From: Cloacibacillus sp.
GTDB lineage: Bacteria; Synergistota; Synergistia; Synergistales; Synergistaceae
Assembly: GCA_036655895.1 (NCBI GenBank)
Contig: JAVVPF010000007.1
Coordinates: 1 to 64,000 of the forward strand
Direction of reading: 5' to 3'
DNA: 64,000 bases
A program made the position numbers and the translations under genes. Positions 7,677-21,954 of this stretch are shown one piece after another; positions within the stretch are counted from its first letter, which is position 1, and each line of letters begins with the position of its first letter. The notes beneath the pieces were generated by a model. The model saw only the letters and a list, made by a program, of their open reading frames with translations. It made no database searches and was not told the DNA's origin.

Positions 7677-9236
7677 ATGGCGGACAAAACGATCGACGAA
7701 CTGTGCGCGGCACTTACGGCCAGACGCGAAAAGGCCGCTCTTGGAGGCGGCCAGAAGGCCATCGAAAAGCAGCACGCTAAAGGCAAAATGACCGCACGCG
7801 AGCGCATTGACGCAGTTCTTGACCCCGGCAGCTTCGTTGAGGTTGACGAGTTTGTAGAGCATCGCTGCACGAATTTCGGCCTGGACAAGACGACATTTCT
7901 TGGCGACGGCGTAGTCACTGGTTACGGAACCATAGACGGACGCATCGTCTATGTCTTCAGCCAGGATTTCACAGTAATGGGCGGTTCCCTTGGAGAAATG
8001 CACGCCCAGAAGATATGCAAGGTGCTGGACCTTGCGCTGACAAACGGCGCGCCCTGCATCGGCATCAACGATTCAGGTGGAGCGCGCATCCAGGAAGCGG
8101 TAGACGCCCTTTCAGGATACGGCAAAATATTCTTCCGCAACGTTAAGGCAAGCGGAGTCATTCCCCAGTTCTCAATCATTGCGGGACCCTGCGCCGGCGG
8201 AGCCGTTTACAGCCCCGCGCTGACCGATTTCATCTTCATGGTGGACAAAGTCGGCATCATGCACATCACCGGCCCCGCGGTCATCAAGTCCGTCACCGGT
8301 GAAGACGTCACCTCCGAGCAGATAGGCGGAGCCATGGCACACAACGCGACCTCCGGCTGCGCGCATTTCTTCTCCGCTACGGAGCAGGACTGCTACGCCC
8401 TCGCGCGCAAAGTGATGGGCTACCTCCCCAGCAACAACATGGAAGAGCCTCCCTTTGTGGAAACAGGCGACGATCCGTCACGCATGGACGCCGCCCTCCG
8501 CGAAATAGTCCCCACGAACCCCAACAGGGGCTACGACGTCCGCGACGTCCTCAAAAAGGTCGTTGACAACGGCGATTTCTGCGAAGTGCAGGAACTCTAC
8601 GCGAAGAATATCGTAACGGGCTTTGCCAGAGTCGGCGGCCGCGTAATCGGCATCATCGCCAACCAGGCGAAGTTCATGGCCGGATGCCTCGACATCGACG
8701 CCTCCGACAAGGCCAGCCGCCATATCCGCATCTGCGACTCCTTCAATATCCCCATCGTAACCTTTGAAGACGTTCCCGGCTACCTCCCCGGCCTCAATCA
8801 GGAGATGGGCGGCATCATCCGCCACGGCGCGAAACTCCTTTACGCCTACAGCGAAGCGACAGCCCCCAAGATCACGATCGTAATGCGCAAGGCTTACGGC
8901 GGTTCTTATCTTGGCATGTGCAGCAAAGACCTCGGAGCGGACGTAGTGCTCGCGTGGCCGCAGGCGCAGATAGCCGTTATGGGCGCTGAAGGCGCGGCAA
9001 ACATCATCTTCCGCAAGGACATCGACGCTGCGGAAGACAAAGCTGCAAAACGCGCGGAAAAGATAGAAGAATACAAAGAGAACTTCGCCAACCCGTATAA
9101 AGCGGCGCAGCGTGGATTCGTCGACCGCGTCATTCTTCCCGAAGAGACACGCCCCGCCCTCTATCAGGCCCTTCTGATGACAGAGAGCAAGAGCGAACTC
9201 CGCCCCAAGCGCAAGCACGGCGTAATGCCCAACTAA
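7677..9236 (+). CDS. mmdA: methylmalonyl-CoA decarboxylase alpha subunit (carboxyltransferase)
   Basis: Transfers the carboxyl group of (S)-methylmalonyl-CoA to the biotin of the gamma subunit, giving propionyl-CoA. At 519 residues it has the usual length and both crotonase-like halves of the acyl-CoA carboxyltransferase family; GGARIQEAVDALSGYGKIF and GPCAGGAVYSPAL mark the N-terminal half, and GYLPGLNQEMGGIIRHGAKL with AYGGSYLGM the C-terminal half. Start ATG 7677 follows GAGGAGG. It is encoded with delta, gamma and beta subunits in order, so the complex is the membrane-bound sodium pump and not a soluble propionyl-CoA carboxylase; no biotin carboxylase is encoded here. Confidence 0.93.
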   Translation: MADKTIDELCAALTARREKAALGGGQKAIEKQHAKGKMTARERIDAVLDPGSFVEVDEFVEHRCTNFGLDKTTFLGDGVVTGYGTIDGRIVYVFSQDFTVMGGSLGEMHAQKICKVLDLALTNGAPCIGINDSGGARIQEAVDALSGYGKIFFRNVKASGVIPQFSIIAGPCAGGAVYSPALTDFIFMVDKVGIMHITGPAVIKSVTGEDVTSEQIGGAMAHNATSGCAHFFSATEQDCYALARKVMGYLPSNNMEEPPFVETGDDPSRMDAALREIVPTNPNRGYDVRDVLKKVVDNGDFCEVQELYAKNIVTGFARVGGRVIGIIANQAKFMAGCLDIDASDKASRHIRICDSFNIPIVTFEDVPGYLPGLNQEMGGIIRHGAKLLYAYSEATAPKITIVMRKAYGGSYLGMCSKDLGADVVLAWPQAQIAVMGAEGAANIIFRKDIDAAEDKAAKRAEKIEEYKENFANPYKAAQRGFVDRVILPEETRPALYQALLMTESKSELRPKRKHGVMPN

Positions 9237-9253
9237 GGCGCCGGAGCTAAATT

Positions 9254-9646
9254 ATGGGAAGTGAACATTTAAGCACCTATTTCACCGGCGTCACCGGCGG
9301 GCTCACCATGTCGCTGATAGCGTTCAGCATAGTCTTCATCGTCATACTCGGGCTCATGCTCGTTATGATGGGAATGAAGCACCTCTGCCGCGCCATCGAC
9401 AACATGCACGCTCCGAAGGCGGCGGCTCCGGTGTCGCCCGCGGCTCCCGCACCAGCAAAAGCGGCGGCCCCTGCGGCTTCCGTCCAGGCAGCTGCTGCTG
9501 ACGACGAGCTTCTTGCCGTCATCTCTGCTGCTATCATGGCCGCTTGCGGCTCAACGGCGCGCGTAGTCGCCTTCAGCCCTGTAAAAGCGCCGGTCTCTTC
9601 CTCATGGAAGAACATCGGCAGAATCCAGAACTCAGAAGGCTGCTAG
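9254..9646 (+). CDS. mmdD: methylmalonyl-CoA decarboxylase delta subunit (OadG family)
   Basis: A 130-residue small anchor subunit. One transmembrane helix (about residues 16-38) is followed by an Ala/Pro-rich linker and a short C-terminal region rich in small residues (LLAVISAAIMAACG), the typical architecture of OadG and MmdD. In this family the subunit holds the carboxyltransferase on the membrane pump and is needed for assembly. Placement between alpha and the biotin carrier, all in one direction, supports the call more than sequence alone does. Confidence 0.85.
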   Translation: MGSEHLSTYFTGVTGGLTMSLIAFSIVFIVILGLMLVMMGMKHLCRAIDNMHAPKAAAPVSPAAPAPAKAAAPAASVQAAAADDELLAVISAAIMAACGSTARVVAFSPVKAPVSSSWKNIGRIQNSEGC

Positions 9647-9679
9647 CCTTAATAAAAAAACTTGGGAGGTTTTTCTCTG

Positions 9680-10081
9680 ATGTCACGCAAATATAGAGTC
9701 ACCGTAAACGGAAAAGCATACGATGTAGATGTAGAAGAGATGGGTGCAGGAGCAGTAGCAGCGCCCGCGCCCGCAGCGGCCCCTGTAGCCGCGCCGGCCC
9801 CTGTGGCGGCCCCCGCTCCCGTAGCGGCGCCCGCACCTGCGGCTCCCGCAGCGCCTGTCGCGGCAGGCGAAGGCTCTGTCATCGCGCCGATGCCCGGCAA
9901 AGTCCTCAAAATAGTCGTAGCGCAGGGCGCGGCTGTAACGGCGGGCCAGCTCGTAATAATACTCGAAGCAATGAAGATGGAAAATGAAATCTTCACAGCA
10001 GTAGCAGGAACAGTTTCTCAGATCTGCTGCAAAGAAGGAGACACGGTCAGCACCGGCGACACGCTCCTTGTAGTAGCTTAG
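9680..10081 (+). CDS. mmdC: methylmalonyl-CoA decarboxylase gamma subunit, biotin carrier
   Basis: A 133-residue biotin carboxyl carrier. The N-terminus (MSRKYRVTVNGKAYDVDVEE) is followed by a long Ala/Pro linker (about residues 24-63) and a biotinyl domain with the motif EAMKMEN; the biotinylated lysine is K99. It moves CO2 from the alpha subunit to the beta-subunit pump. The ATG at 9680 is chosen because GGGAGG lies 11 bases upstream; an earlier TTG start would include that site in the coding sequence. The codon-repetitive linker is low complexity and is normal for the family. Confidence 0.93.
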   Translation: MSRKYRVTVNGKAYDVDVEEMGAGAVAAPAPAAAPVAAPAPVAAPAPVAAPAPAAPAAPVAAGEGSVIAPMPGKVLKIVVAQGAAVTAGQLVIILEAMKMENEIFTAVAGTVSQICCKEGDTVSTGDTLLVVA

Positions 10082-10120
10082 TCTGCGGCCACGCAGTCTT
10101 TTCCTAGGGAGGAAAACTGA

Positions 10121-11242
10121 ATGGATCTTTATTTGACCGCACTAAAAGGCGTCATAGACCAGTCGGGATTCATTGCGCTCAACGGGCCAACGCTCGTTAT
10201 GCTCCTTGTCTCCTTCATACTGCTCTACCTCGCCATTGCTAAAGGCTTTGAGCCTCTTCTTCTGATGCCCATCGCCTTCGGCTGCCTTCTCGTCAACCTG
10301 CCGCTCTCCGGCATCGTCGACCCGGGCGGCTTCCTGTACTTCGTAAAGTTCGGCATCGACCATGAGCTCTATCCCGTCATCATCTTCATGGGCATAGGCG
10401 CGCTCACTGACTTTGGCCCGCTTCTTGCGAACCCAATAACCTTCCTTCTCGGAGCTGCCGCCCAGATAGGCGTCTTCTTCGCGGTAATCGGAGCCATGTT
10501 CATGGGCTTCACCATCCAGGAAGCGGCCGGCATCGGCATCATCGGCGGAGCTGACGGCCCCACGGCCATCTACCTCTGCTCGAAGCTCGCCAAAGGCATA
10601 CTTCCTGCCGTCGCAGTTGCGGCGTACAGCTACATGTCGCTCGTTCCGCTCATCCAGCCTCCGGTCATCAAGCTGCTTACAACGCATAAAGACCGCAGCA
10701 TCAAGATGGAGCAGCTTCGCCCCGTAACACGCACGGAGAAGATCCTCTTCCCCATCATCTCCACGATAGCCTGCGGACTGGTGCTTCCCGCCTCCGTGCC
10801 GCTCGTCGGAATGCTGATGTTCGGAAACCTCATGCGCGAATGCGGCTGCACGGAGCGTCTCTCGCTCGCCGCGCAGAACGAAGTGCTTAACGCAACGACG
10901 ATATTCCTCGGCATATCCGTTGGAGCGACAATGAGCGCAGCCTCATTCCTCACAGTCGCCACCATCAAGATCATCGCCCTGGGCCTTGTCGCCTTCGTAT
11001 TCAGCACAGCGGGCGGCGTCCTCTTCGGACAGATAATGAAGGTTGCCACAGGCGGCAAGATCAACCCGATCATCGGCGCGGCTGGAGTTTCTGCCGTTCC
11101 TATGGCGGCGCGCGTCTGCCAGAAGGTAGTCTCGAAAGAATTCCCTGGCAGCTACATCCTCATGCACGCCATGGGCCCGAACGTAGCCGGAGTTATCGGC
11201 ACGGCGGTAGCCGCGGGAGCTATGCTCACGCTTCTTTCATAA
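10121..11242 (+). CDS. mmdB: methylmalonyl-CoA decarboxylase beta subunit, Na+ pump
   Basis: The membrane subunit (373 residues, about nine to eleven helices) that decarboxylates carboxybiotin and exports Na+. Family signatures are GALTDFGPLL near residue 92 and GIGIIGGADGPTAIYL near residue 140; the Asp in GGADGPT is the conserved residue implicated in Na+ transport in OadB. The start follows GGGAGGA. It ends the operon, and a strong terminator lies 36 bases further on. Confidence 0.95.
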   Translation: MDLYLTALKGVIDQSGFIALNGPTLVMLLVSFILLYLAIAKGFEPLLLMPIAFGCLLVNLPLSGIVDPGGFLYFVKFGIDHELYPVIIFMGIGALTDFGPLLANPITFLLGAAAQIGVFFAVIGAMFMGFTIQEAAGIGIIGGADGPTAIYLCSKLAKGILPAVAVAAYSYMSLVPLIQPPVIKLLTTHKDRSIKMEQLRPVTRTEKILFPIISTIACGLVLPASVPLVGMLMFGNLMRECGCTERLSLAAQNEVLNATTIFLGISVGATMSAASFLTVATIKIIALGLVAFVFSTAGGVLFGQIMKVATGGKINPIIGAAGVSAVPMAARVCQKVVSKEFPGSYILMHAMGPNVAGVIGTAVAAGAMLTLLS

Positions 11243-11891: not shown

Positions 11892-12342
11892 AACGCCGCC
11901 TCCTAAAATATATAGATAGCAATTTTCTTGAGTTAAGTATAATATGAAATAAGCAAAAAAAGCAACGTGGGAGGGAAAACGTGATTTCCTATGTCTAAAT
12001 ATTGATTATGCTGACCTCACGTTTATGCCGCTTGTTTTTTACTTTACGCTTCTCATTTATAACAATACTGTTCATTTTTGTTTTTAATTAAATTTTTAAT
12101 TGAAAATTTAATTACCGCATAAAGATTATACTTCTTTTAGCGCCCTCCATTGATCACACAATATTTGTAATTGACAAAATTAAAAAACAATGTAATAATT
12201 TTGCCAACGAAATAGAATCCCAAAAATAATAAGGGATTTTAAAATAATTACAAAATCCTATTAATGATTGGGGATGGTAAAATAATTTAGACATCTGTGA
12301 TGTCGAGCTTGCTTTTATTCTGTAAAAAAGGAGATGCAAGAG
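11892..12342 (+). promoter_or_regulatory. intergenic region with candidate promoter for the glycyl-radical gene cluster
   Basis: A very AT-rich 451-base gap between divergent genes. For the plus strand, TTGACA (12171-12176) is followed after 17 bases by AATAAT (12194-12199). An imperfect inverted repeat ATTTGT/ACAAAA overlaps this -35 (12162-12178) and could be an operator. AAGGAG (12328-12333) serves the SDR gene. For the minus strand, TTGCTT about 18 bases from TATACT (near 11935-11970) may drive the GNAT gene. No hidden gene was seen. Confidence 0.45.
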
Positions 12343-13095
12343 ATGAAATTTCTTAACAAGACCGTTCTGATAACCGGTGCGTCCGGGGGGATCGGCAGGG
12401 CTTTAGCAAAGGGATTCGCAAGAGAAGGTGCCGCTGTAGCTCTCGTCGGCAGGGACAAGGAGCGGACAGCGGAGGTAGCGAGGTGTTGTGGTGCAGTTTA
12501 TCATTCCACCCTCGATATCACTGATCCAGCAAACTGCAAAAAAATAATTCAAGATGTTTATAAGCTGGCTGGAGGCCTTGACGTATTGATCAACAACGCG
12601 GGAGCAATGTTCCGAGGTGATATAGCGGACACTCCTGACGAAGAATGGCTAAAACTTTTTGATATCAACGTACATGCGGTTTTTTATCTTTCCAAAGAGG
12701 CAATCAAAGTCATGCGTGAACATCATATAAAAGGCAATATTGTTCATATTGCCTCCAACAGCGCTCTTGGCGGGCGTAAAGGTCACATTGCATACGCAAC
12801 TACAAAAGGCGCTGTAGTGCAGATGGCTCGCTGTATGGCCCTTGACTGCGCAGTCGACCAAATTCGTGTCAATGCCGTCTGTCCAGGAGCGACTGATACC
12901 TCTATGCCAATGTCGAAGCATGGAATCGAAATGACGCGCGAGCGTCTTATAGAAAATTGCCGTCTAACTATACCGATGCAGCGTATGGCCGCCCCCGAAG
13001 AAGTTGTTTCAGCGGTGCTCTTCATTGCTTCGGAAGAGTCTAGTTACATCACGGGAACGACGCTTTCTGTTGACGGAGGAACCACAGCAGGTTAG
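12343..13095 (+). CDS. SDR-family oxidoreductase
   Basis: A 250-residue short-chain dehydrogenase/reductase. It has the cofactor motif TGASGGIG (residues 11-18), NNAGAMF, the catalytic Ser in HIASNSALGG and YATTKGA with the Tyr-x3-Lys pair, and the end SSYITGTTLSVDGG. An Arg after the glycine motif region (VGRDKER) hints at NADP(H). The second ATG (12343) is used since AAGGAG is nine bases upstream and only one base before the first ATG. It is the first gene of a cluster that ends near 21954; it may oxidise or reduce a hydroxyl group of that cluster's substrate. Confidence 0.85.
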   Translation: MKFLNKTVLITGASGGIGRALAKGFAREGAAVALVGRDKERTAEVARCCGAVYHSTLDITDPANCKKIIQDVYKLAGGLDVLINNAGAMFRGDIADTPDEEWLKLFDINVHAVFYLSKEAIKVMREHHIKGNIVHIASNSALGGRKGHIAYATTKGAVVQMARCMALDCAVDQIRVNAVCPGATDTSMPMSKHGIEMTRERLIENCRLTIPMQRMAAPEEVVSAVLFIASEESSYITGTTLSVDGGTTAG

Positions 13096-13171
13096 AAATA
13101 CGTTTCTTCCATGGCGTTTTATATTACCTATACCACGATAAATATCTCATTAATGAAAGGTGGAAAAGAAT

Positions 13172-14398
13172 ATGAGTTACACAATATTTAAAAATGCAAC
13201 ATTGATAGACGGTAACGGAGGAGATCCTAAGTATAACGCGTCGGTATTGATTGAAGATAATATTATAAAAGAGGTTGCAGATAATGAAATACATTGCGCC
13301 TCCGCAGATGTAATAGATTGTCAAGGAAATGCTTTGCTGCCAGGGCTTATTGACGGTCACATGCACCTTGGGCTTATTGAGATAGAAGTAGTTGATATCG
13401 TTCGTCGCAATCCTATCGGACTGATAGCCGCGAGAATGTTCAGAAATATGCGTGAATCGTTGGCGATGGGATATACTTCAGCCCGTGATACCGGCGGCGC
13501 GGATGTGGGTTTTCGCCTTGCGATGGAAAATGGTGAAGCGCTTGGGCCGCGTTTGAGAGTCAGCGGACCGTGCATAGCGCAAAGCGGCGGCCACGGCGAC
13601 AACAGAGGTCCGTCGGAGTATCGCCCTTACTATGAAGGTTCCATGGGATTCAGATCAAGATTGGCCGACGGCAGAGCTGAAGTTCTGAAAGCGTGCAGAG
13701 AGACACTGCGTGAAGGTGCGGACTTTATCAAAATCATGGCGTGCGGCGGATGCGCGAGTCCGACCGGAGGTCCAAACGCGTGTCAATATACACCGGAAGA
13801 GATGTCGGCCGCAGTAGAAGTGGCGGACAACGCTGGGACTTACGTCGCGGCACATTGTTATTCGGATAAGAGCATACGCCGCTGCACCGAAGCCGGAATC
13901 CGCACGATTGAACATGGGAATCTGCTTGAGCGACAGACCGCTAAGATGATGGCTGAGAGAGGCACCTATCTTGTACCCACCCAAATAACCTATGAAATGG
14001 TGCTGGAACATGCTCGAGATACTCTTTCAAAGTTTATGTACGATAAATTTATCGCAGTGAATGACAGAGGCTATGAAGCCATCAAAATCGCTATGGAAGA
14101 AGGTGTCAAAATCGGAGGCGGCAGCGACCTTACCGGACATAATACACAATATGCCTTTGGCGCCATTACATACCAGGCTAGGGCACAGGGCGCAATGAAC
14201 GCGATAGTATCGTTTACAAAGGTAAACTCGGAGATTATGGGTATATCAGAACAGGTCGGAACCATTGAAGCCGGTAAACTGGCCGACTTTATCGTTGTTA
14301 AAGGGAATCCGTTAGAAAACATGGAGCTCTTTAAAAATTCCGCAGAGAACGTTTTAGTGATCATGCAGGACGGAAAGACATACAAGAAGCTGATCTAG
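13172..14398 (+). CDS. metal-dependent amidohydrolase (Xaa-Pro dipeptidase/imidazolonepropionase-like)
   Basis: A 408-residue amidohydrolase-superfamily enzyme. The metal site is visible: GLIDGHMHLG (H63, H65), the lysine of FIKIMACGG that is usually carboxylated, AAHCYS, IEHGN and the Asp of GGGSDLTG. The closest family I can name is the group that includes Xaa-Pro and Xaa-Arg dipeptidases and imidazolonepropionase. Start ATG 13172 has AAAGGTGG eight bases upstream. No signal peptide, so it is cytoplasmic. In this cluster it could release a proline-like compound from a peptide or open a cyclic amide; that is inference from neighbours. Confidence 0.82.
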   Translation: MSYTIFKNATLIDGNGGDPKYNASVLIEDNIIKEVADNEIHCASADVIDCQGNALLPGLIDGHMHLGLIEIEVVDIVRRNPIGLIAARMFRNMRESLAMGYTSARDTGGADVGFRLAMENGEALGPRLRVSGPCIAQSGGHGDNRGPSEYRPYYEGSMGFRSRLADGRAEVLKACRETLREGADFIKIMACGGCASPTGGPNACQYTPEEMSAAVEVADNAGTYVAAHCYSDKSIRRCTEAGIRTIEHGNLLERQTAKMMAERGTYLVPTQITYEMVLEHARDTLSKFMYDKFIAVNDRGYEAIKIAMEEGVKIGGGSDLTGHNTQYAFGAITYQARAQGAMNAIVSFTKVNSEIMGISEQVGTIEAGKLADFIVVKGNPLENMELFKNSAENVLVIMQDGKTYKKLI

Positions 14399-14440
14399 CA
14401 AGCAGCATAACGCAGCGTAATATTGAAAGGAGTGTAAGAT

Positions 14441-15874
14441 ATGAGCGAACACATTTCAAGCAATCCCGAAAGTATGGTAGAAGCTTCAAAAGGAATCAAA
14501 ATCCCACATGTATGGACGATAATTTTTTTCTGCCTGATTGCGGCGGGCCTCATGACTTATTTGATTCCAGCAGGTCTGTATGACCGCATTGAAGTCGCTG
14601 GACGCAAAGTTGTAGATCCTAATACCTTTCATTTTATAACACAATCCCCTGTAAGCGTTTTTGGTTGGTTCGTGTGCATCATCGAAGGAATGCAGCAGTC
14701 CATGCCGATAATGTGTATGGTGCTATGCCCGATAGCAGCCACTGACATCTACATTCAAAGCGGCACCATGGAAAAAATGATAAGCTGGATCCTTCGTACC
14801 TGCCGCAGCGACAAAGTGATCATGCTCGGTCTCATGATTTTCTTTGCATGCAGGGGCGCGATGGGAGCGATGGAGCACCATATACCCTTTGTTCCGCTTG
14901 CTATAAGCATCTCCCTGATATGCGGTTATGACGTCATGGTAGGCCTTCTATTGGTATTCATGCCGACATTTGTTTCCTTTGCCGTGGGTCCCCTGAATAT
15001 ATACACGGTGGCCGTCGCTCAGGGGATTTCCGGTCTGCCGCTTTATTCCGCCATGGCTTTCCGCGTAGTGATATGGCTGGTATGCTGCGCCATAACTTTT
15101 TGGTATATCTTCCGTTACGCCAAGAGAGTGAAAGCTGACCATTCGTTGAGCGTTACAGGGTTTGTTAATCCCTCGTCTGCCGCTGGCGACAAAGAATTGG
15201 AAAAGATGCGCGATGAACGAATGAGCGTACGTCAAAAAGTATTGATGGTCATGTTCCTGATAACCACCGTTCTTCAGATGGTAGGTCCTATCAAGTTTGA
15301 ATGGGGTTTTTCAGAAATAGCCGCCCTGTGGCTGGTCTCTGGAATCTTGGCAGGCGTAGTTGCCGGCTACAATAACGAAAAAATATGCAGTATTTTCGTA
15401 CGCAGCTGGACCTCGGATATCCTTATTGGAACCTTCTGCATTGGCTTTGCGCGCGCGGTGTCATTGGTGCTGACAAAGGGCAATGTGCTTGACACGATAA
15501 TTTACGCTCTTGCGGTGCCACTAAAACAGATCCCGATCTCCTTTTCAGCCATAGGGATGTATTTCACCCAGTCTATAATCAATTTCTTTATACCGTCAGG
15601 CAGCGGACAGGCCACTGTTACTATGCCTATCATGGCTCCCCTGGCCGATATCATTGGCATGACGCGCCAGACCGCAGTTATAGCTTTTCAGATGGGCGAC
15701 GGCCTGACCAATATGATAATACCCACCTTTGGTACCTTGATCATCTATATCAGCATTGCCAAGGTTGACTTTAAAACGTATATAAAATGGGTCTATCCGC
15801 TTTATTTCATGCTGGTTGGAGTTGCCTGCGTCACTCTGCTCATTGCTACTGCAATAAAGCTGGGGCCCTTTTAA
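14441..15874 (+). CDS. YfcC/DcuC-family membrane carrier
   Basis: A 477-residue polytopic inner-membrane carrier of the YfcC group (C4-dicarboxylate-carrier-like, related to putative arginine/ornithine transporters). It starts with a soluble 25-residue tail, then a helix and the typical LIPAGLYDRIEVAGRKVVDP. Later landmarks are HHIPFVPLAISI and NFFIPSGSGQATVTMPIMAP, the family's conserved C-terminal hairpin. AAGGAG lies in front of the start. It should bring the substrate of the cluster into the cell; family members carry amino acids, peptides or dicarboxylates, so the substrate stays open. Confidence 0.82.
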   Translation: MSEHISSNPESMVEASKGIKIPHVWTIIFFCLIAAGLMTYLIPAGLYDRIEVAGRKVVDPNTFHFITQSPVSVFGWFVCIIEGMQQSMPIMCMVLCPIAATDIYIQSGTMEKMISWILRTCRSDKVIMLGLMIFFACRGAMGAMEHHIPFVPLAISISLICGYDVMVGLLLVFMPTFVSFAVGPLNIYTVAVAQGISGLPLYSAMAFRVVIWLVCCAITFWYIFRYAKRVKADHSLSVTGFVNPSSAAGDKELEKMRDERMSVRQKVLMVMFLITTVLQMVGPIKFEWGFSEIAALWLVSGILAGVVAGYNNEKICSIFVRSWTSDILIGTFCIGFARAVSLVLTKGNVLDTIIYALAVPLKQIPISFSAIGMYFTQSIINFFIPSGSGQATVTMPIMAPLADIIGMTRQTAVIAFQMGDGLTNMIIPTFGTLIIYISIAKVDFKTYIKWVYPLYFMLVGVACVTLLIATAIKLGPF

Positions 15875-15942
15875 AGAAAGGCCAATGGAAGTTTAAATAG
15901 TTTTTCAACAGTATGATACGACCATATTCAGGAGGTACTATG

Positions 15943-16725
15943 ATGACAGTTAACGTTAAGATCGGGTTTATAGGCACAGGCGGTATAGCTACCGCGCTTG
16001 CCAAAGGTTTCTGCACTGCGCCGGAGTTTGAAGGCAAAGTCTATGTCTTTGATATAAATAAGGAAAGAACTGACTGCTTAAAAAAGCTGTATCCGGACAA
16101 AATAATTGTTGCAGCATCGAACCAGGAACTTGTAAATAACGTAGATGTTGTTTTTCCAACCCTTCTTCCTAAGGTGCTTGAGAAGGTTGCGCCCGAAATA
16201 AATTTTAGAAAAGAAAATCATGTTATACATATTGCAGCCGGCACAAAAATATCAAAGGCTGCTCCGTGGTTCGCTCCAGCTCAGAGCGTTGTTCGTGCGG
16301 TCCCGCTTCCTTTTGCCGCAAGAAAGATCGGCCCCGTCGTTCTTTTCGGTGACGACGAATTGAGCTGCGAAGTGCTGGCACTTCTTGGAACTATCGTCAA
16401 GGTCAAGAGCGAAAAAGATCTTGAAGTGCTTGCCGCTGTAACTGGCGTGATGGTTCCGTATTATGGCCTCGTAGGAGAAATCGTTAGATGGTGCATGACA
16501 AAAGATCTTGATTTTAAGAGCGCTCTGGATTATACCTCCTATATGAATGAGGCGCTTTCAACCTTGATGCGTGAAGATTGTACTGAAGATATAGAGGCCT
16601 TCATGCTGGAAAATACTACGCCAGGCGGAATGAATGAACTGGGGTGGGACGAAATGAAAGCGACGGATGGATATGGGCCATGGAGAAGCGCGCTTGAAAA
16701 AATCGGCAAACATTACGATCTGTAG
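15943..16725 (+). CDS. divergent pyrroline-5-carboxylate-reductase-like oxidoreductase
   Basis: A 260-residue protein with the P5C reductase fold: N-terminal NAD(P) site GFIGTGGIATALAKGF and an all-helical C-terminal domain with TTPGGMNELG, comparable to TSPGGTT-x-G in ProC. It is not an ordinary ProC: the proline-loop SGSGPAY is replaced by TGVMVPYYG, and the segment after VRA is VPLPFAARKIGPVV instead of MPNTPA. It probably reduces a cyclic imine or related compound made by this cluster. AGGAGG is seven bases before ATG 15943; ATG 15940 is an alternative. Confidence 0.75.
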   Translation: MTVNVKIGFIGTGGIATALAKGFCTAPEFEGKVYVFDINKERTDCLKKLYPDKIIVAASNQELVNNVDVVFPTLLPKVLEKVAPEINFRKENHVIHIAAGTKISKAAPWFAPAQSVVRAVPLPFAARKIGPVVLFGDDELSCEVLALLGTIVKVKSEKDLEVLAAVTGVMVPYYGLVGEIVRWCMTKDLDFKSALDYTSYMNEALSTLMREDCTEDIEAFMLENTTPGGMNELGWDEMKATDGYGPWRSALEKIGKHYDL

Positions 16726-16736
16726 GCTCTAATCAT

Positions 16737-16780
16737 AATTGAGAAAAATCCTTCCTGTGCAGGGAGGATTTTTCTCAATT
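16737..16780 (+). terminator. hairpin after the ProC-like gene (partial terminator or processing site)
   Basis: A 20-bp stem (16737-16756 with 16761-16780, one G-U pair) with a four-base loop. T5 lies inside the right arm and no T run follows, so full termination is uncertain; the next gene has its own spacing and ribosome site. Confidence 0.6.
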
Positions 16781-16826
16781 AAGCGTATAAACTATAATTA
16801 AAGATTAAGATAAGGAGAGATATACA

Positions 16827-17213
16827 ATGGACATCGCAAAAGCTTTAAAAATGATAGAAAAAGCTCAAACAAAGGCCAATGAATTTGGAGCTTCAATGGC
16901 TTTTTCAGTTTTTGACGCAAGCCAGGAACCTGTGTTTTTCTATAGGATGGACGGTACGGAAAACTTAAGCGCCAAGCTGGCGTCTGCAAAAGCTCTGACG
17001 GCATTGAAAATTGGCGCTGATACGGAGAAGGTTGCATACTTAGTTAAAAAGGATAGCGGCCTTTTGCGCAATATCCGTTACGAGACGGAGATATCTCTAA
17101 TAGGCGGCGGGAAGTTGATATTTGATAATGAAACTCTGATTGGCGCCATTGGTGTCAGCGGGGGCTCCGAGGATGAGGATATTGCCGTAGCATCCGCCGC
17201 AATATCTAATTAA
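16827..17213 (+). CDS. GlcG/HbpS-family protein
   Basis: A 128-residue protein of the GlcG/HbpS (haem-degrading-like, PduO C-terminal) fold, matching in length and in segments such as FDASQEPVFFYRMDGT, SAKALTAL and the glycine-rich end LIGAIGVSGGSEDEDIAVA. Members bind small molecules, haem or cobalamin-like ligands, or form part of diol and glycolate clusters; the role here is unknown. AAGGAGA precedes the start. It sits immediately before the glycyl radical enzyme but is separated from it by a promoter/operator region. Confidence 0.75.
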   Translation: MDIAKALKMIEKAQTKANEFGASMAFSVFDASQEPVFFYRMDGTENLSAKLASAKALTALKIGADTEKVAYLVKKDSGLLRNIRYETEISLIGGGKLIFDNETLIGAIGVSGGSEDEDIAVASAAISN

Positions 17214-17219
17214 AACCGG

Positions 17220-17261
17220 TTGACAACCTCCTCAGTTGTACTATACTATCTATTATAGTAT
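17220..17261 (+). promoter_or_regulatory. promoter with overlapping operator before the glycyl radical enzyme
   Basis: TTGACA (17220-17225) and TATACT (17242-17247) are 16 bases apart. A perfect inverted repeat ATACTAT-N5-ATAGTAT (17243-17261) covers the -10 box and start region, where a repressor would block transcription. The GntR/FCD regulator encoded at 20691 is the natural candidate. Confidence 0.65.
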
Positions 17262-17311
17262 CCTAAATAATACACAGGCTCCTAAAAATATAGTAAATTG
17301 GAGGAATTGGC

Positions 17312-19735
17312 ATGGATAAAAAAATCATGGACCCTCAGGGCACAGCTTCAACATACATGAATAGAATCAGTGTTTTGAAGAACAGAGTCCTCAGCACGCG
17401 TCCGGAGATGGATTTGGAGAATGCGAGGATCTTAACGGAAAGTTTTATGGAAACAGGAGGGCTTCCCTGGGCTCTTAGAAAGGCTAAAGGCGTTTACAAA
17501 CAGTGCAGTGAAAAAACTGTCAAGATTTGGGAACAGGAATTGATCGTAGGCTGTTCTGGAAGCAAAATCCGTGCAGGTATACTTTGCGCCGATACCTGCT
17601 GGTCCGTGCTGAACGAAGAATTAGATACCATAAGTACACGCCGCTATGATCCGTTTTATCTCAGAGAAGAAGACAGAAAACTTTTTTTGGATGTCATAAA
17701 ACCCTTCTGGAACGGGCGTTCTAATTATGAAGAATGGCTGGCGCAGATACCGGATGATGTGCGCGCTCTCAGAGATAATGGAGTTATTTACATCGACCGC
17801 AAAGCCGTTCGCGGCTGGGGTGAAACAACTGCCGGATACAGCGACGTTATCAATAAAGGTATCAAAAAAATATGCGATGAGATAAAAGAACGCAGGTCGA
17901 AGCTGGATATGACGGTCCCTGGAGATTATGCGAAAATGATCTATCTTGACGCGCTGCTTATTGCCGGCGAGGGGATCATTACACTGGCGGAAAGATACTC
18001 TGCGGAGGCATATCGTCTTGCGTCAGAAGAGCACGACCCAGTGCGTAAGCAAGAATTGATGGAAATAGGACGCATCTGCGCAAAGGTCCCCGCCTATCCT
18101 GCGGAAACATTCCATGAAGCGCTTCAGTCATTTTATTTTTATCAAATTTGTATATTCATGGAACAAAACGCAGCAAGTTACAATCCCGGCCGTATGGATC
18201 AATATCTTTATCCGTTTTATAAGGCGGACATCGAAGCCGGCCGTCTAACAGAAGACAGGGCTCAGGAGCTGCTTGATTGTCTATGGGTGAAATTTGCGGA
18301 ACCTTGTCTTTTTCAGGACAAAACAACCGCTGAATTTGCAGCAGGCTACCCAATGTTCCAGAACGTCACCGTGGGCGGCGTGGATATCGCTGGTAAAAAT
18401 GCAGTGAATGAACTGTCTTATATGATATTGCAGGCAACTATGGACGTCCAGCTCTACCAGCCGTCACTTTCCGTCCGTTACAGCTTGGCAAAAAACCCAA
18501 ACTCTTTTCTTCGTAAAATTGTCGAACTGATAAAATTAGGGACAGGTTTTCCTGCGTTTCATAACGATGATATCGGCATAAGGATGCTGATGAATAAGGG
18601 CGTTCCTTTACGCGAAGCTTTTGACTGGAATCCGAGCGGCTGCGTGGAAACAAATTTGGAAGGACGTCTGAGGGGGTACACCGCCCTTGCCGATATCAAC
18701 CTCGGCTCTATGATAGAGTTTACGATGCTGAACGGAAAATGCAGGAAGTCAGGACTGCAAATATCGACTGACTCTGGAGATCCTGTTGGATTTGAACATT
18801 TTGAAGAGTTTCTTGCGGCTTTAAAAAAACAGCTGGCTTATGCAGTACATACGGTGGTCAAAGGGAGCCATTTAATTGACGAGATAGGTTTTAATCGTCC
18901 TGTACCAGCTCTTTCGTTGAGTTTTAGAGAATGTGTTGAGAAATGTTTGGACTATGCTTGGGGCGGAGCCAAATATAACACTGGAAACGGAATAATCCTC
19001 ATTGGTATAGCAGATTTGATCAACAGTATCGCGGCCGTCAAACATCTTGTTTATGATACTAAACAGATTTCGATGGACCAACTATTGACGGCGCTTGATT
19101 CAAACTTTGAGCATATGCCTGAAATCCTAAAACTTTGCAAGGACGCTCCAAAATATGGCAACGACATCGAATGGGTCGATAATATCGCAGCCGATATATT
19201 CACCTATATTGCCGATGAGATAGAGAGTTATAAGAGCCGTTTTGGCACAATGACTCCTGGCATCCTCCCAGTTTCCGGCAATACTCCGTTTGGGCTTGAA
19301 GTCGGAGCGCTGCCTTCGGGACGTCTTGCGTGGAAACCTTTGGCGGATGGCGTGAGTCCGAATGGAGGCACCGATTTTGATGGTCCGAGCGCCGTATTGA
19401 AATCTGTTGCAAAGCTTCCACATGACAGATTTGTGCAGGGGACGCTACTTAACATGAAAATAGAACCTACACTCTTCGCAACAGAGTCGGGCATTCAAAA
19501 CGTGATGGCGCTTCTTAAAACGCTTTGTTCCCTTAACATCTTTCACGTTCAATTCAACGTAATAGACCAGGAAAAACTTCTTGACGCACAAAAACATCCT
19601 GAAGAATATCAGGGACTGTTGGTAAGAGTTGCCGGCTACACCGCATACTTCACAGAATTGGGTAAAGACGTGCAGGATGAAATTATAGGGCGCACAATGC
19701 AAAGCTCGCTTTCCTCGCCACTTTCGTGCGGTTAG
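17312..19735 (+). CDS. glycyl radical enzyme, dehydratase/lyase type, substrate unknown
   Basis: An 807-residue enzyme of the pyruvate formate-lyase superfamily. The radical loop is RVAGYTAYF with Gly775, and the active-site loop is SGCVETN with Cys444 and Glu446. A single Cys followed by x-Glu is typical of glycerol, diol, choline and hydroxyproline dehydratase/lyase members and not of true pyruvate formate-lyase, which has two Cys. It works anaerobically in the cytoplasm after activation by the next gene. Neighbours (ProC-like reductase, prolidase-like amidohydrolase, ProX-like deacylase) recall hydroxyproline dehydratase loci, but the reductase is divergent, so a different cyclic or amino substrate is possible. 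GGAGG precedes ATG 17312. Confidence 0.9.
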   Translation: MDKKIMDPQGTASTYMNRISVLKNRVLSTRPEMDLENARILTESFMETGGLPWALRKAKGVYKQCSEKTVKIWEQELIVGCSGSKIRAGILCADTCWSVLNEELDTISTRRYDPFYLREEDRKLFLDVIKPFWNGRSNYEEWLAQIPDDVRALRDNGVIYIDRKAVRGWGETTAGYSDVINKGIKKICDEIKERRSKLDMTVPGDYAKMIYLDALLIAGEGIITLAERYSAEAYRLASEEHDPVRKQELMEIGRICAKVPAYPAETFHEALQSFYFYQICIFMEQNAASYNPGRMDQYLYPFYKADIEAGRLTEDRAQELLDCLWVKFAEPCLFQDKTTAEFAAGYPMFQNVTVGGVDIAGKNAVNELSYMILQATMDVQLYQPSLSVRYSLAKNPNSFLRKIVELIKLGTGFPAFHNDDIGIRMLMNKGVPLREAFDWNPSGCVETNLEGRLRGYTALADINLGSMIEFTMLNGKCRKSGLQISTDSGDPVGFEHFEEFLAALKKQLAYAVHTVVKGSHLIDEIGFNRPVPALSLSFRECVEKCLDYAWGGAKYNTGNGIILIGIADLINSIAAVKHLVYDTKQISMDQLLTALDSNFEHMPEILKLCKDAPKYGNDIEWVDNIAADIFTYIADEIESYKSRFGTMTPGILPVSGNTPFGLEVGALPSGRLAWKPLADGVSPNGGTDFDGPSAVLKSVAKLPHDRFVQGTLLNMKIEPTLFATESGIQNVMALLKTLCSLNIFHVQFNVIDQEKLLDAQKHPEEYQGLLVRVAGYTAYFTELGKDVQDEIIGRTMQSSLSSPLSCG

Positions 19736-19744
19736 GCCTCTCTT

Positions 19745-20671
19745 ATGGTCGCAACTGGGCAGGTATTACGTATCGAACGAAGTTCCAGCTATGACGGGGA
19801 AGGGTTGCGCACAGTCATCTTTCTCAAAGGCTGTCCTATGTCGTGTATCTGGTGTTCTACACCTGAATCGCAAAAAATTGTCAATGAGATTGGCTGCGAT
19901 GATGTCAAGTGTCTGCGCTGCGGGCTATGCGTCAGTTTATGCCCTAATAGGGCCTTGAGCAAAAGCGCTCAGGGGGTGCCTAAAATGGCTGACGGGAAAT
20001 GCAATGGCTGCGGTGAATGTGCGAAAAACTGTCCTACTAACGCGATTTCTTTATACGGCAAAAGTATGACCGCAGATGAAGTCGTGGCGGAGATCGCAAA
20101 AGACGAACTCTTATATTTTCACTCTGGAGGCGGCTTTACATTTAGCGGCGGGGAAGCATTGACGCAGCCAAAGTTTGTGGCGGAGGTTTTTAAACTCGCG
20201 ATGCAGCGAGGTATCTCTGGAACTATTGAGACAAGCGCGTGCGTTCCTTGGGAAAATATTGCCGCGGTCGTTCCTTTGGTACCAAAGTTTTATGTTGATA
20301 TCAAGCACATGGACCCTGTACGCCACAAAGAACTTACGGGACTTTCAAACGAAATCGTGCTTGACAATATCAGGAAAATTGACGGATGCGGATGCGATAT
20401 AACCATTAGAGTCCCTGTGATACCAACAATTAATGACGGAGAAGACAATATAAAGGCAACAGCCGATTTTTGCAGGGGATTAAAAAATATTTCCGAGCTT
20501 GAACTGTTGGCGTACCATAAACTGGGTATGATAACTTATAGAAAACTTGGAAGAAAAATGGAATTAAACCATATGGAGCCTCCTAGCAAAAACGACATGC
20601 TTCAGATAGCACGACGCCTTAAATTGACGCTGCCTAGCCTCTCTGTTAAAATCAACGGAGGTGAAATTTAA
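19745..20671 (+). CDS. glycyl radical enzyme activase (radical SAM)
   Basis: A 308-residue PflA-family activating enzyme that makes the glycyl radical on the preceding protein using S-adenosylmethionine. The radical-SAM cluster motif C-x3-C-x2-C is C30, C34, C37. It is followed by an inserted pair of ferredoxin clusters, C56/C59/C62/C66 and C86/C89/C92/C96, which is typical of activases of the dehydratase-type glycyl radical enzymes and absent in PflA itself. GGGFTFSGGEAL near residue 121 is the GGE motif. The gene starts nine bases after the enzyme's stop, with no strong ribosome site, so it is probably coupled. Confidence 0.92.
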   Translation: MVATGQVLRIERSSSYDGEGLRTVIFLKGCPMSCIWCSTPESQKIVNEIGCDDVKCLRCGLCVSLCPNRALSKSAQGVPKMADGKCNGCGECAKNCPTNAISLYGKSMTADEVVAEIAKDELLYFHSGGGFTFSGGEALTQPKFVAEVFKLAMQRGISGTIETSACVPWENIAAVVPLVPKFYVDIKHMDPVRHKELTGLSNEIVLDNIRKIDGCGCDITIRVPVIPTINDGEDNIKATADFCRGLKNISELELLAYHKLGMITYRKLGRKMELNHMEPPSKNDMLQIARRLKLTLPSLSVKINGGEI

Positions 20672-20690
20672 GATTGAAAGGTGCATAAAC

Positions 20691-21380
20691 ATGGATCCGG
20701 TATTAAATAAAGATGATGCTTTGTATACACAAATCTATGACATATTAAAAGACAGGATCATGCGTGTGGAGTATTATCCCGGTTCCTTTCTGACTGAAGC
20801 CTCTGTTGCTAAAGAGCTTAATACCAGCCGTATGCCTGTTCGTGTTGCGATGCGCAAGCTTGAGAGCGAAGGTTGGCTTTTGGCGGATTTTAGGAAAAAA
20901 ATAAGAGTACGTGAGATCACAGTTAAAGACGTCCATGAAATATACCAGCTGAGACAGTTGCTTGAAGTCTCTGCGTTAAAAGAAATTTTCAAAAAAGAGC
21001 TCACATGGGAGTACTCTTTTAAATTTGAAGAATGCCTGGTACGCCTCAAGGGTTCTGTAAATGATCAATATCAATGGGATTTTCACGAGACGGCCTTTCA
21101 TCGCGAAATAGTTAAAGCTATGGAGAGCGACAGGATAGACCGCATATATAGAAACAACCAGGACGAACTGATACGCATCGGAATGCTGTGTAATAAACAA
21201 CCGGCCCACTATGAAGTTATGCATGCGAGTATTGAGGCGTTTTTCCATGCTGTCAGAGAAAAGGATTTTGACAAAGCTCTTGAAATTTTAAACAAGGATC
21301 ACATTGAGCTTGGATATCAGATGGGGATAGACAGAATCGCCGAATTGGAAAAGCTTAAGGTGAGAAAAAAATCCGGCTGA
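20691..21380 (+). CDS. GntR-family regulator with FCD ligand domain
   Basis: A 229-residue transcription factor. The N-terminal winged helix (residues 1-75) has YTQIYDILKDRI and NTSRMPVRVAMRKLESEGWL; the helical FCD-type C-terminal domain follows, with HETAFHREIV and a second conserved His near residue 170 as expected for the metal/ligand site. FCD regulators usually repress catabolic genes and are released by an organic acid. ATG 20691 is used since GAAAGG lies about nine bases upstream, whereas an earlier GTG directly abuts its GGAG. Likely target is the inverted repeat at 17243-17261. Confidence 0.85.
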   Translation: MDPVLNKDDALYTQIYDILKDRIMRVEYYPGSFLTEASVAKELNTSRMPVRVAMRKLESEGWLLADFRKKIRVREITVKDVHEIYQLRQLLEVSALKEIFKKELTWEYSFKFEECLVRLKGSVNDQYQWDFHETAFHREIVKAMESDRIDRIYRNNQDELIRIGMLCNKQPAHYEVMHASIEAFFHAVREKDFDKALEILNKDHIELGYQMGIDRIAELEKLKVRKKSG

Positions 21381-21414
21381 GTGTACGGCCCCATATAATA
21401 AACGGGAGGGCGAA

Positions 21415-21954
21415 ATGCTTAACATAAGTGAAGTATATACAAAAGCGCCTACAGATGAACGCGGCGAGCTGGAAACAAAGGTATATAAGCTGCTAGACGA
21501 GTTAAAGATACCCTTTGAGCGCGTAGATAACGATACAGTCGAATCAATGGATGAATGTGTTGAAATAAGCGGTAAGCTGGGCGCCGAAATCAGAAAAAGC
21601 GTCTTTCTGTGCGATAGGAAAAAAAATAATTTCTATCTCGTCATAATGCCGGCGGCAAAATCCTTTAACACAAAGGTTTTCTGTGAAAAGCTTGATTGTC
21701 CGCGAGTGTCGTTTGCTCCGGCAGAGTGCATGAGCGAGATTTTGGGTGTATTGCCCGGCACCGCAAGTGTAATGAGCCTGATAAACGACGCGACGCTGCG
21801 CGTCAAGGTGGTAATTGATAAAGAGGTTGCAGACGCCGAGTGGTTTGCTTGCAACCCCGGCGCAAACACTACTCACATAAAGCTTAAGACCGCTCAAATG
21901 TTGGAATCGTTTCTTCCTTCTACGCGCCATAAGGCCGTTGTGGTTGAATTGTAA
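21415..21954 (+). CDS. ProX/YbaK-family aminoacyl-tRNA deacylase
   Basis: A 179-residue free-standing editing domain related to the insertion domain of prolyl-tRNA synthetase. Segments such as YKLLDELKIPFERV, FLCDRKKNNFYLVIMPA, GVLPGTASVMSLIND and the late FACNPGANTTHIKL match the ProX/PrdX group, which removes wrongly attached amino acids (for example Ala or Cys) from tRNA-Pro. GGGAGGG precedes the start. Its place at the end of a cluster with a ProC-like reductase and a prolidase-like enzyme supports a proline-analogue theme: it could protect protein synthesis when such an analogue accumulates. That role is inference. Confidence 0.8.
   Translation: MLNISEVYTKAPTDERGELETKVYKLLDELKIPFERVDNDTVESMDECVEISGKLGAEIRKSVFLCDRKKNNFYLVIMPAAKSFNTKVFCEKLDCPRVSFAPAECMSEILGVLPGTASVMSLINDATLRVKVVIDKEVADAEWFACNPGANTTHIKLKTAQMLESFLPSTRHKAVVVEL

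Follow-up and report, generated by a model that had tools for sequence, protein, structure and literature searches.

What compound does the glycyl radical enzyme (GRE) at the center of a nine-gene block in Cloacibacillus sp., an anaerobe of the family Synergistaceae, act on, and do its neighbors belong to the same pathway? The block occupies positions 12343 to 21954 of the window, by which we mean the whole 64,000-nucleotide stretch analyzed here (contig JAVVPF010000007.1 of assembly GCA_036655895.1), and all nine genes are read from the plus strand. An earlier note on this DNA had taken it for an uncharacterized GRE cluster with a proline-analogue theme, and the open reading frame list, together with searches against Pfam, NCBIfam and PDB, bore out the position and family of every gene named there. 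Having compared the block with 180 genomes of the class, among them its own 2.9-Mb genome (G000), we consider it probable, at roughly 60%, that this is a mobile, self-contained and regulated catabolic island whose enzymes dehydrate and then reduce a compound of the hydroxyproline type. The compound itself is most likely N-methylated or of another stereochemistry.

The nine genes are a real unit and not chance neighbors. The complete set is rare, being found in two of the 180 genomes, namely G000 and G130, a second genus to carry the whole block; gene order is identical in the two, with 52 to 88% identity between counterparts. G129, a sister species in the genus of G130, keeps the left flank and has about 200 bp in place of the block. 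This flank, common to G130 and G129, is made up of methylmalonyl-CoA decarboxylase genes and an acetyltransferase gene, and beyond the block position the two genomes share canonical ProC and permease genes. Genes for a methylmalonyl-CoA decarboxylase-type sodium pump also sit immediately left of the block in the window (7677-11242), as a flank shared with G130 and G129, whereas the right flank differs from theirs in carrying an aminotransferase gene. Seen against the empty site in G129, the block in G130 marks the boundaries, from the SDR gene to the ProX gene, as natural and the whole set as gained or lost together. The earlier note had also let its case hinge on the neighbors being conserved together in relatives, and here the answer was mixed: a core of GRE, activase and ProC genes is widespread, unlike the full set, and the amidohydrolase, YfcC and GntR genes also occur as an independent module.

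The GRE itself (17312..19735, plus strand; 807 amino acids) is oxygen-sensitive and of the dehydratase type, with a thiyl cysteine at Cys444, Glu446 and a glycyl position at Gly775. Its gene is followed by that of a radical-SAM GRE activase (19745..20671, plus strand), which has two ferredoxin-type cluster motifs and scores 299 bits with TIGR02494 against a cut-off of 174. With its Cys-Val-Glu and glycyl motifs in place, the GRE narrowly passes the broad PFL2/glycerol-dehydratase-type model TIGR01774 (686.9 versus 678.2 bits) and stays below the NCBIfam cut-offs for both HypD (617.8 versus 1100 bits) and CutC (687.2 versus 1050 bits), to which it is 39% identical. In a GRE tree, the window clade is sister to CutC and stands apart from HypD, HplG and glycerol dehydratase. 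It includes two solved structures with uninformative molecule names, 8id1 (64% identical to the window GRE) and 8iof (51%).

Pocket residues, read from a sequence alignment, set the enzyme further apart from HypD. Among the HypD residues found essential by mutagenesis (H160, S334, D339 and D278; PMC7077986), the first three correspond to E171, A343 and M348 in the window GRE, which has no Asp at the position of D278, where the alignment is gapped; the HypD carboxylate binders Y450 and T645 correspond to D461 and V654. E171 is kept across the whole clade and D461 in nearly all members, and this acidic pair together with Arg/Lys163 is common to almost the entire clade. At nearly all aligned positions, the pocket of the window subgroup matches that of a subgroup from Clostridia and Desulfobulbaceae. 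The locus does resemble a HypD locus in joining a GRE dehydratase to an activase and a nearby ProC-type reductase, but the GRE is only 36% identical to HypD, lies on another branch and has its key pocket residues replaced. We therefore rejected a HypD identity on the strength of cut-off, pocket and tree, in agreement with the initial view that this is not a standard HypD locus. A true HypD is encoded elsewhere in the genome (C4:68845-70788, equivalent to L058:8429-10789), alongside an activase and a GntR-type gene; it scores 1137.4 bits, over the NCBIfam cut-off, and it alone groups beside 6vxc in the tree. The window GRE is thus not needed for the use of trans-4-hydroxy-L-proline.

The relatives within the clade offer a closer lead. 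Jiang et al. (2024, ACS Catal 14:4407, as cited in PMC13319378) report a pair of GREs that use two isomers of N-methyl-4-hydroxyproline. In our comparison, the 8id1-type GREs of L085, L169, L170 and L053 all lie near a gene for an MttB-family methyltransferase, that of L085 being closest to a solved glycine betaine methyltransferase, and three of the four also lie beside ProC. The 8iof-type GRE of L176 likewise comes with MttB and ProC, and G320 carries one cluster of each type within a single genome. Such company is what one would expect for betaine demethylation, dehydration and reduction of two N-methyl-4-hydroxyproline isomers, and judging from this genomic context, 8id1 and 8iof are probably the published enzymes. 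The label "uncharacterized" is then only half true, given the two solved structures in the clade and their probable match to the published pair. By these comparisons, the chemistry predicted for the GRE and its group resembles that of known enzymes. Some 8iof-type GREs (L055, L057 and L175) lie near an opine-dehydrogenase-like gene instead of ProC.

The product can be approached through the reductase. The ProC-like protein of the block (15913..16725, plus strand) was assigned by NCBIfam and PDB searches to the PRK06476 subfamily, of which it is a divergent member, below the equivalog cut-offs of both PRK06476 (174.7 versus 254) and proC (59.1 versus 196.75). ProC-family genes occur near a GRE of the clade in 15 loci (the window, L032, L048, L051/L062, L052, L080, L081, L085, L169, L170, L171, L174, L176, L177 and L185). 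For a 3-Mb genome carrying between one and three ProC genes, we estimate the chance of finding one in a random 20-kb stretch at about 1 to 2%. The GRE-paired reductases fall into at least three separate ProC lineages, which implies that the pairing evolved repeatedly, and with partners from these lineages recurring in 15 loci, a pyrroline-type product is well supported. Together with an amidohydrolase whose nearest relatives are prolidases and a ProX gene that, in a genome of the family Lachnospiraceae, directly neighbors a GRE of the clade, this upholds the proline-type theme.

The earlier note had gone further, arguing from the loss of the SGSGPAY motif in the reductase that the product may be a different imine or a ketone. 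We rejected this as an argument because the loss is a trait of the subfamily: the motif is missing from all of its Synergistaceae members, including paralogues expected to use pyrroline-5-carboxylate (P5C). Among the paralogues that are 45 to 51% identical to the window protein, three (L097, L098 and L099) lie beside a RocD-like ornithine aminotransferase gene, as would fit P5C reduction. Such PRK06476-type ProC and RocD-like proteins could possibly constitute an ornithine-to-proline pair in Synergistaceae.

In the pathway we propose, the substrate would be an imino acid of the 4-hydroxyproline type, though not free trans-4-hydroxy-L-proline itself; it would be N-methylated or of another stereochemistry, and might arrive as an N-acyl or dipeptide form. 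The YfcC carrier would import it and, were it conjugated, the prolidase-like amidohydrolase would free it. The activated GRE would then abstract a hydrogen atom through Cys444 and eliminate water, yielding pyrroline- or N-methylpyrrolinium-5-carboxylate. Using NAD(P)H, the ProC-like reductase could turn this product into proline or N-methylproline and thereby provide an electron sink. Both halves of the block would be controlled by the GntR protein via two 25-bp sites, the ProX-like protein would clear mischarged amino acids from tRNA-Pro, and the SDR-family and GlcG-like proteins may have roles in the pathway as well.

A narrower form of this proposal, to which we would give somewhat less than even odds, is that the window GRE is an N-methyl-4-hydroxyproline dehydratase like one of the published pair, with the amidohydrolase and YfcC carrier there for co-regulated peptide uptake. 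The window GRE shares with 8id1 and 8iof, and so presumably with the pair, the clade, the thiyl Cys and glycyl Gly motifs and a ProC-family neighbor; the clade-wide acidic pair with Arg/Lys163 and five MttB homologues encoded in the same genome also fit. Several observations nonetheless weigh against the pathway as drawn, and some of them also against this form of it. There is no MttB gene adjoining the window block, in contrast to the five sister-clade loci (L053, L085, L169, L170 and L176). Three of 16 pocket-aligned positions differ, with A343, A458 and I462 where the 8id1 clade has Ser, Ser and Tyr. The ProC-like reductase also belongs to another subfamily, and the block adds prolidase-like, YfcC, SDR, GlcG and ProX genes to what 8id1- and 8iof-type loci contain. 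The tie between these structures and the published enzymes is itself drawn from context. The clade C GREs, which are tandem or TRAP-linked, 67 to 70% identical to the window GRE and represented in the same genome, have no ProC nearby, so the pairing rule is not universal. Finally, a prolidase could not release an N-methylated imino acid from a peptide bond, and the neighbors thus pull two ways: an amidohydrolase that frees the GRE substrate from such a bond would imply a secondary amine and argue against an N-methylated substrate, whereas one that serves peptide uptake alone would say little about what the GRE acts on.

The amidohydrolase (13160..14398, plus strand) is a prolidase-like member of cog1228, and its best PDB matches are the prolidases 3mkv (282 bits) and 3feq/3n2c (245 bits); the prolidases of this family include Sgx9260b/c. 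Family and metal-ligand pattern (HxH, Lys, His, His, Asp) are conserved in the alignment to 3mkv and 3feq, but the protein scores below the NCBIfam cut-off for Xaa-Pro dipeptidase (215.3 versus 500). Next to it, the YfcC/DcuC-family carrier (14441..15874, plus strand) was recognized by Pfam and NCBIfam. In eight genomes, amidohydrolase, YfcC and GntR genes make up a conserved module of three that has no GRE with it, and G000 is one of these through a second copy of the module. At a distance of about 1 kb, this second copy (C4:2247-11773; L135) has a sodium symporter gene and a methyltransferase set of MttB, corrinoid and UroD types.

The final gene of the block encodes a ProX-like tRNA-Pro editing-domain protein (21415..21954, plus strand; PF04073 tRNA_edit, 79 versus 25.5 bits; 72% identical in G130). 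In some clostridia, PrdX lies with the proline reductase genes, and the window protein resembles such PrdX/ProX trans-editing proteins in being a free-standing tRNA_edit domain beside proline-related catabolism; it differs in sitting in a GRE block, and its specificity is a prediction. A 60% identical homologue stands between clade GRE and activase in L177, from the Lachnospiraceae-family genome mentioned above, and in L223 a 53% identical one is separated by about 2 kb from an orthologue of HplG. In L177 (8327-10709), the clade GRE gene is broken by a TGA into two pieces, through sequencing error or as a pseudogene, and is followed by ProX and the activase. In L223 (8207-13272), the ProX homologue is two genes away from the HplG orthologue, which matches 7vua with 1479 bits. 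HplG, a C-N-cleaving GRE, also acts on hydroxyproline, but its L223 orthologue is only 29% identical to the window GRE and belongs to another branch. Since ProX homologues are present in 34 of 61 genomes, mostly away from GREs and in one case close to the alanyl-tRNA synthetase gene, genome-wide co-occurrence is unspecific and adjacency alone counts; that adjacency is suggestive only.

These neighbors underlie the other narrower form of the pathway, in which the GRE dehydrates a secondary-amine analogue, such as cis-4- or 3-hydroxyproline, released from dipeptides by the prolidase-like enzyme, and ProX clears tRNA-Pro mischarged with the analogue. The presence of both a prolidase-like amidohydrolase and ProX in a block gained or lost as a unit speaks for it, as do the ProX gene within the clade GRE cluster of L177, a pocket unlike that of the MttB-linked clade and the true HypD already at hand in the genome. 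Still, the block has no epimerase gene, ProX homologues are common and mostly far from GREs, and the specificity of ProX is read from its sequence; we regard this form as doubtful. It seems to us unlikely that this one mobile, co-regulated block joins a GRE of new activity, acting on a proline analogue toxic to translation, to its own tRNA-Pro trans-editing protein, which would shield protein synthesis during breakdown of the analogue.

Might the substrate not be related to proline at all? A CutC-like C-N lyase or a diol-type dehydratase, to which the ProC-like, amidohydrolase and ProX genes would be passengers, is conceivable in that CutC, the choline trimethylamine-lyase, is the nearest characterized branch in the tree, that Glu171 aligns with the Asp of the CutC GGGD motif and that the clade C members do without ProC. 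However, the window GRE is distant from CutC (39% identity and a score of 687 against a cut-off of 1050), its pocket is different, it has a ProC partner of a kind that recurs from several lineages, and the block behaves as a unit in gain or loss, so we rate this alternative as quite improbable. An ordinary second HypD working on free trans-4-hydroxy-L-proline is hardly credible: the adjoining ProC gene recalls HypD loci and the best model of the activase is the HypD-activase, yet the latter misses its cut-off (301 versus 425), the GRE misses that of HypD and groups elsewhere, H160, S334 and D339, essential in HypD (PMC7077986), are replaced, and the genome already has the true enzyme.

The hydroxyproline-type pathway we prefer would be under common control, as the block has two transcription-unit heads, each with -35/-10 boxes and an operator-like site, ahead of the SDR gene and again ahead of the GRE gene. 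The promoter-like boxes match 11 of 12 consensus positions in both cases, and are consensus matches only (TTGACA/AATAAT with extended TG, 12171..12199, and TTGACA/TATACT, 17220..17247, both plus strand). Just 3′ of the first -10 box lies 25-bp site 1, GAATCCCAAAAATAATAAGGGATTT (12215..12239, plus strand), an instance of a recurring motif; site 2, GTATCCTAAATAATACACAGGCTCC (17258..17282, plus strand), also 25 bp, was left out of motif building and takes the same position as the second site in G130. The motif recurs twice in the G130 block, upstream of both the GRE and the TRAP transporter genes in G135, and upstream of GRE genes in Candidatus Formimonas warabiya (G182), G536 and, more weakly, G181, and thus in both Synergistota and Bacillota. 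Genome-wide, perfect pattern matches number two each in G000 (sites 1 and 2 of the window), G130 and G135, all within GRE clusters, counts that show rarity and not independent discovery, as the pattern was drawn partly from the same sites. Leave-one-out scores range from 15 to 36; with 15.3 and 15.7, sites 1 and 2 of the window come close to the best score in shuffled sequence (15.1), and are marginal alone, resting on their position. A second perfect match in G182 (2488506), inside a hairpin terminator that closes an ethanolamine-type operon, we put down to chance. We had also considered the palindrome GACATC-TGT-GATGTC at 12290 as an operator, and dropped it in favor of the conserved 25-bp site for want of a close counterpart at the equivalent position in G130.

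The presumed ligand of both sites is the GntR/FCD regulator recognized by Pfam (20661..21380, plus strand). Relatives adjoin clade GREs in L081 (53% identity), L186 (49%) and L187 (42%), and the motif is present in L081 and L186. The two operator-like sites probably control the block, and we infer that the GntR/FCD protein binds both of them. A PDB search with the TRAP binding protein gave no match at 1e-20.

The first gene of the block encodes an SDR-family oxidoreductase (12343..13095, plus strand) with TGASGGIG and YATTK motifs and a 77% identical orthologue in the G130 block. Its likeliest start is the ATG at 12343, preceded by AAAGGAG, rather than the position 12334 given by the open reading frame tool. 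Between reductase and GRE lies the gene for a GlcG/HbpS-like protein (16827..17213, plus strand; PF03928, 97 bits), 52% identical in G130. Elsewhere in the genome, at C4:93725-98487 (L043), two GRE genes are found in tandem, each with an activase gene, one of the products sharing 69% identity with the window GRE, the other being glycerol-dehydratase-like (33%). Such tandem pairs are common in Synergistia, without ProC, and type I-C CRISPR-Cas-looking genes adjoin the one in L043.

Which osmolytes from plants and animals, and which products of collagen, an anaerobe can use is decided by its GREs. For the block described here, genome comparison ties a GRE subgroup of predicted activity to a proline-type product, and enzyme, reductase, operator and regulator come as one compact set. 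If the link to ProX were true, this would be an uncommon instance of shared control over a tRNA proofreading factor and the breakdown of the very compound it guards against.

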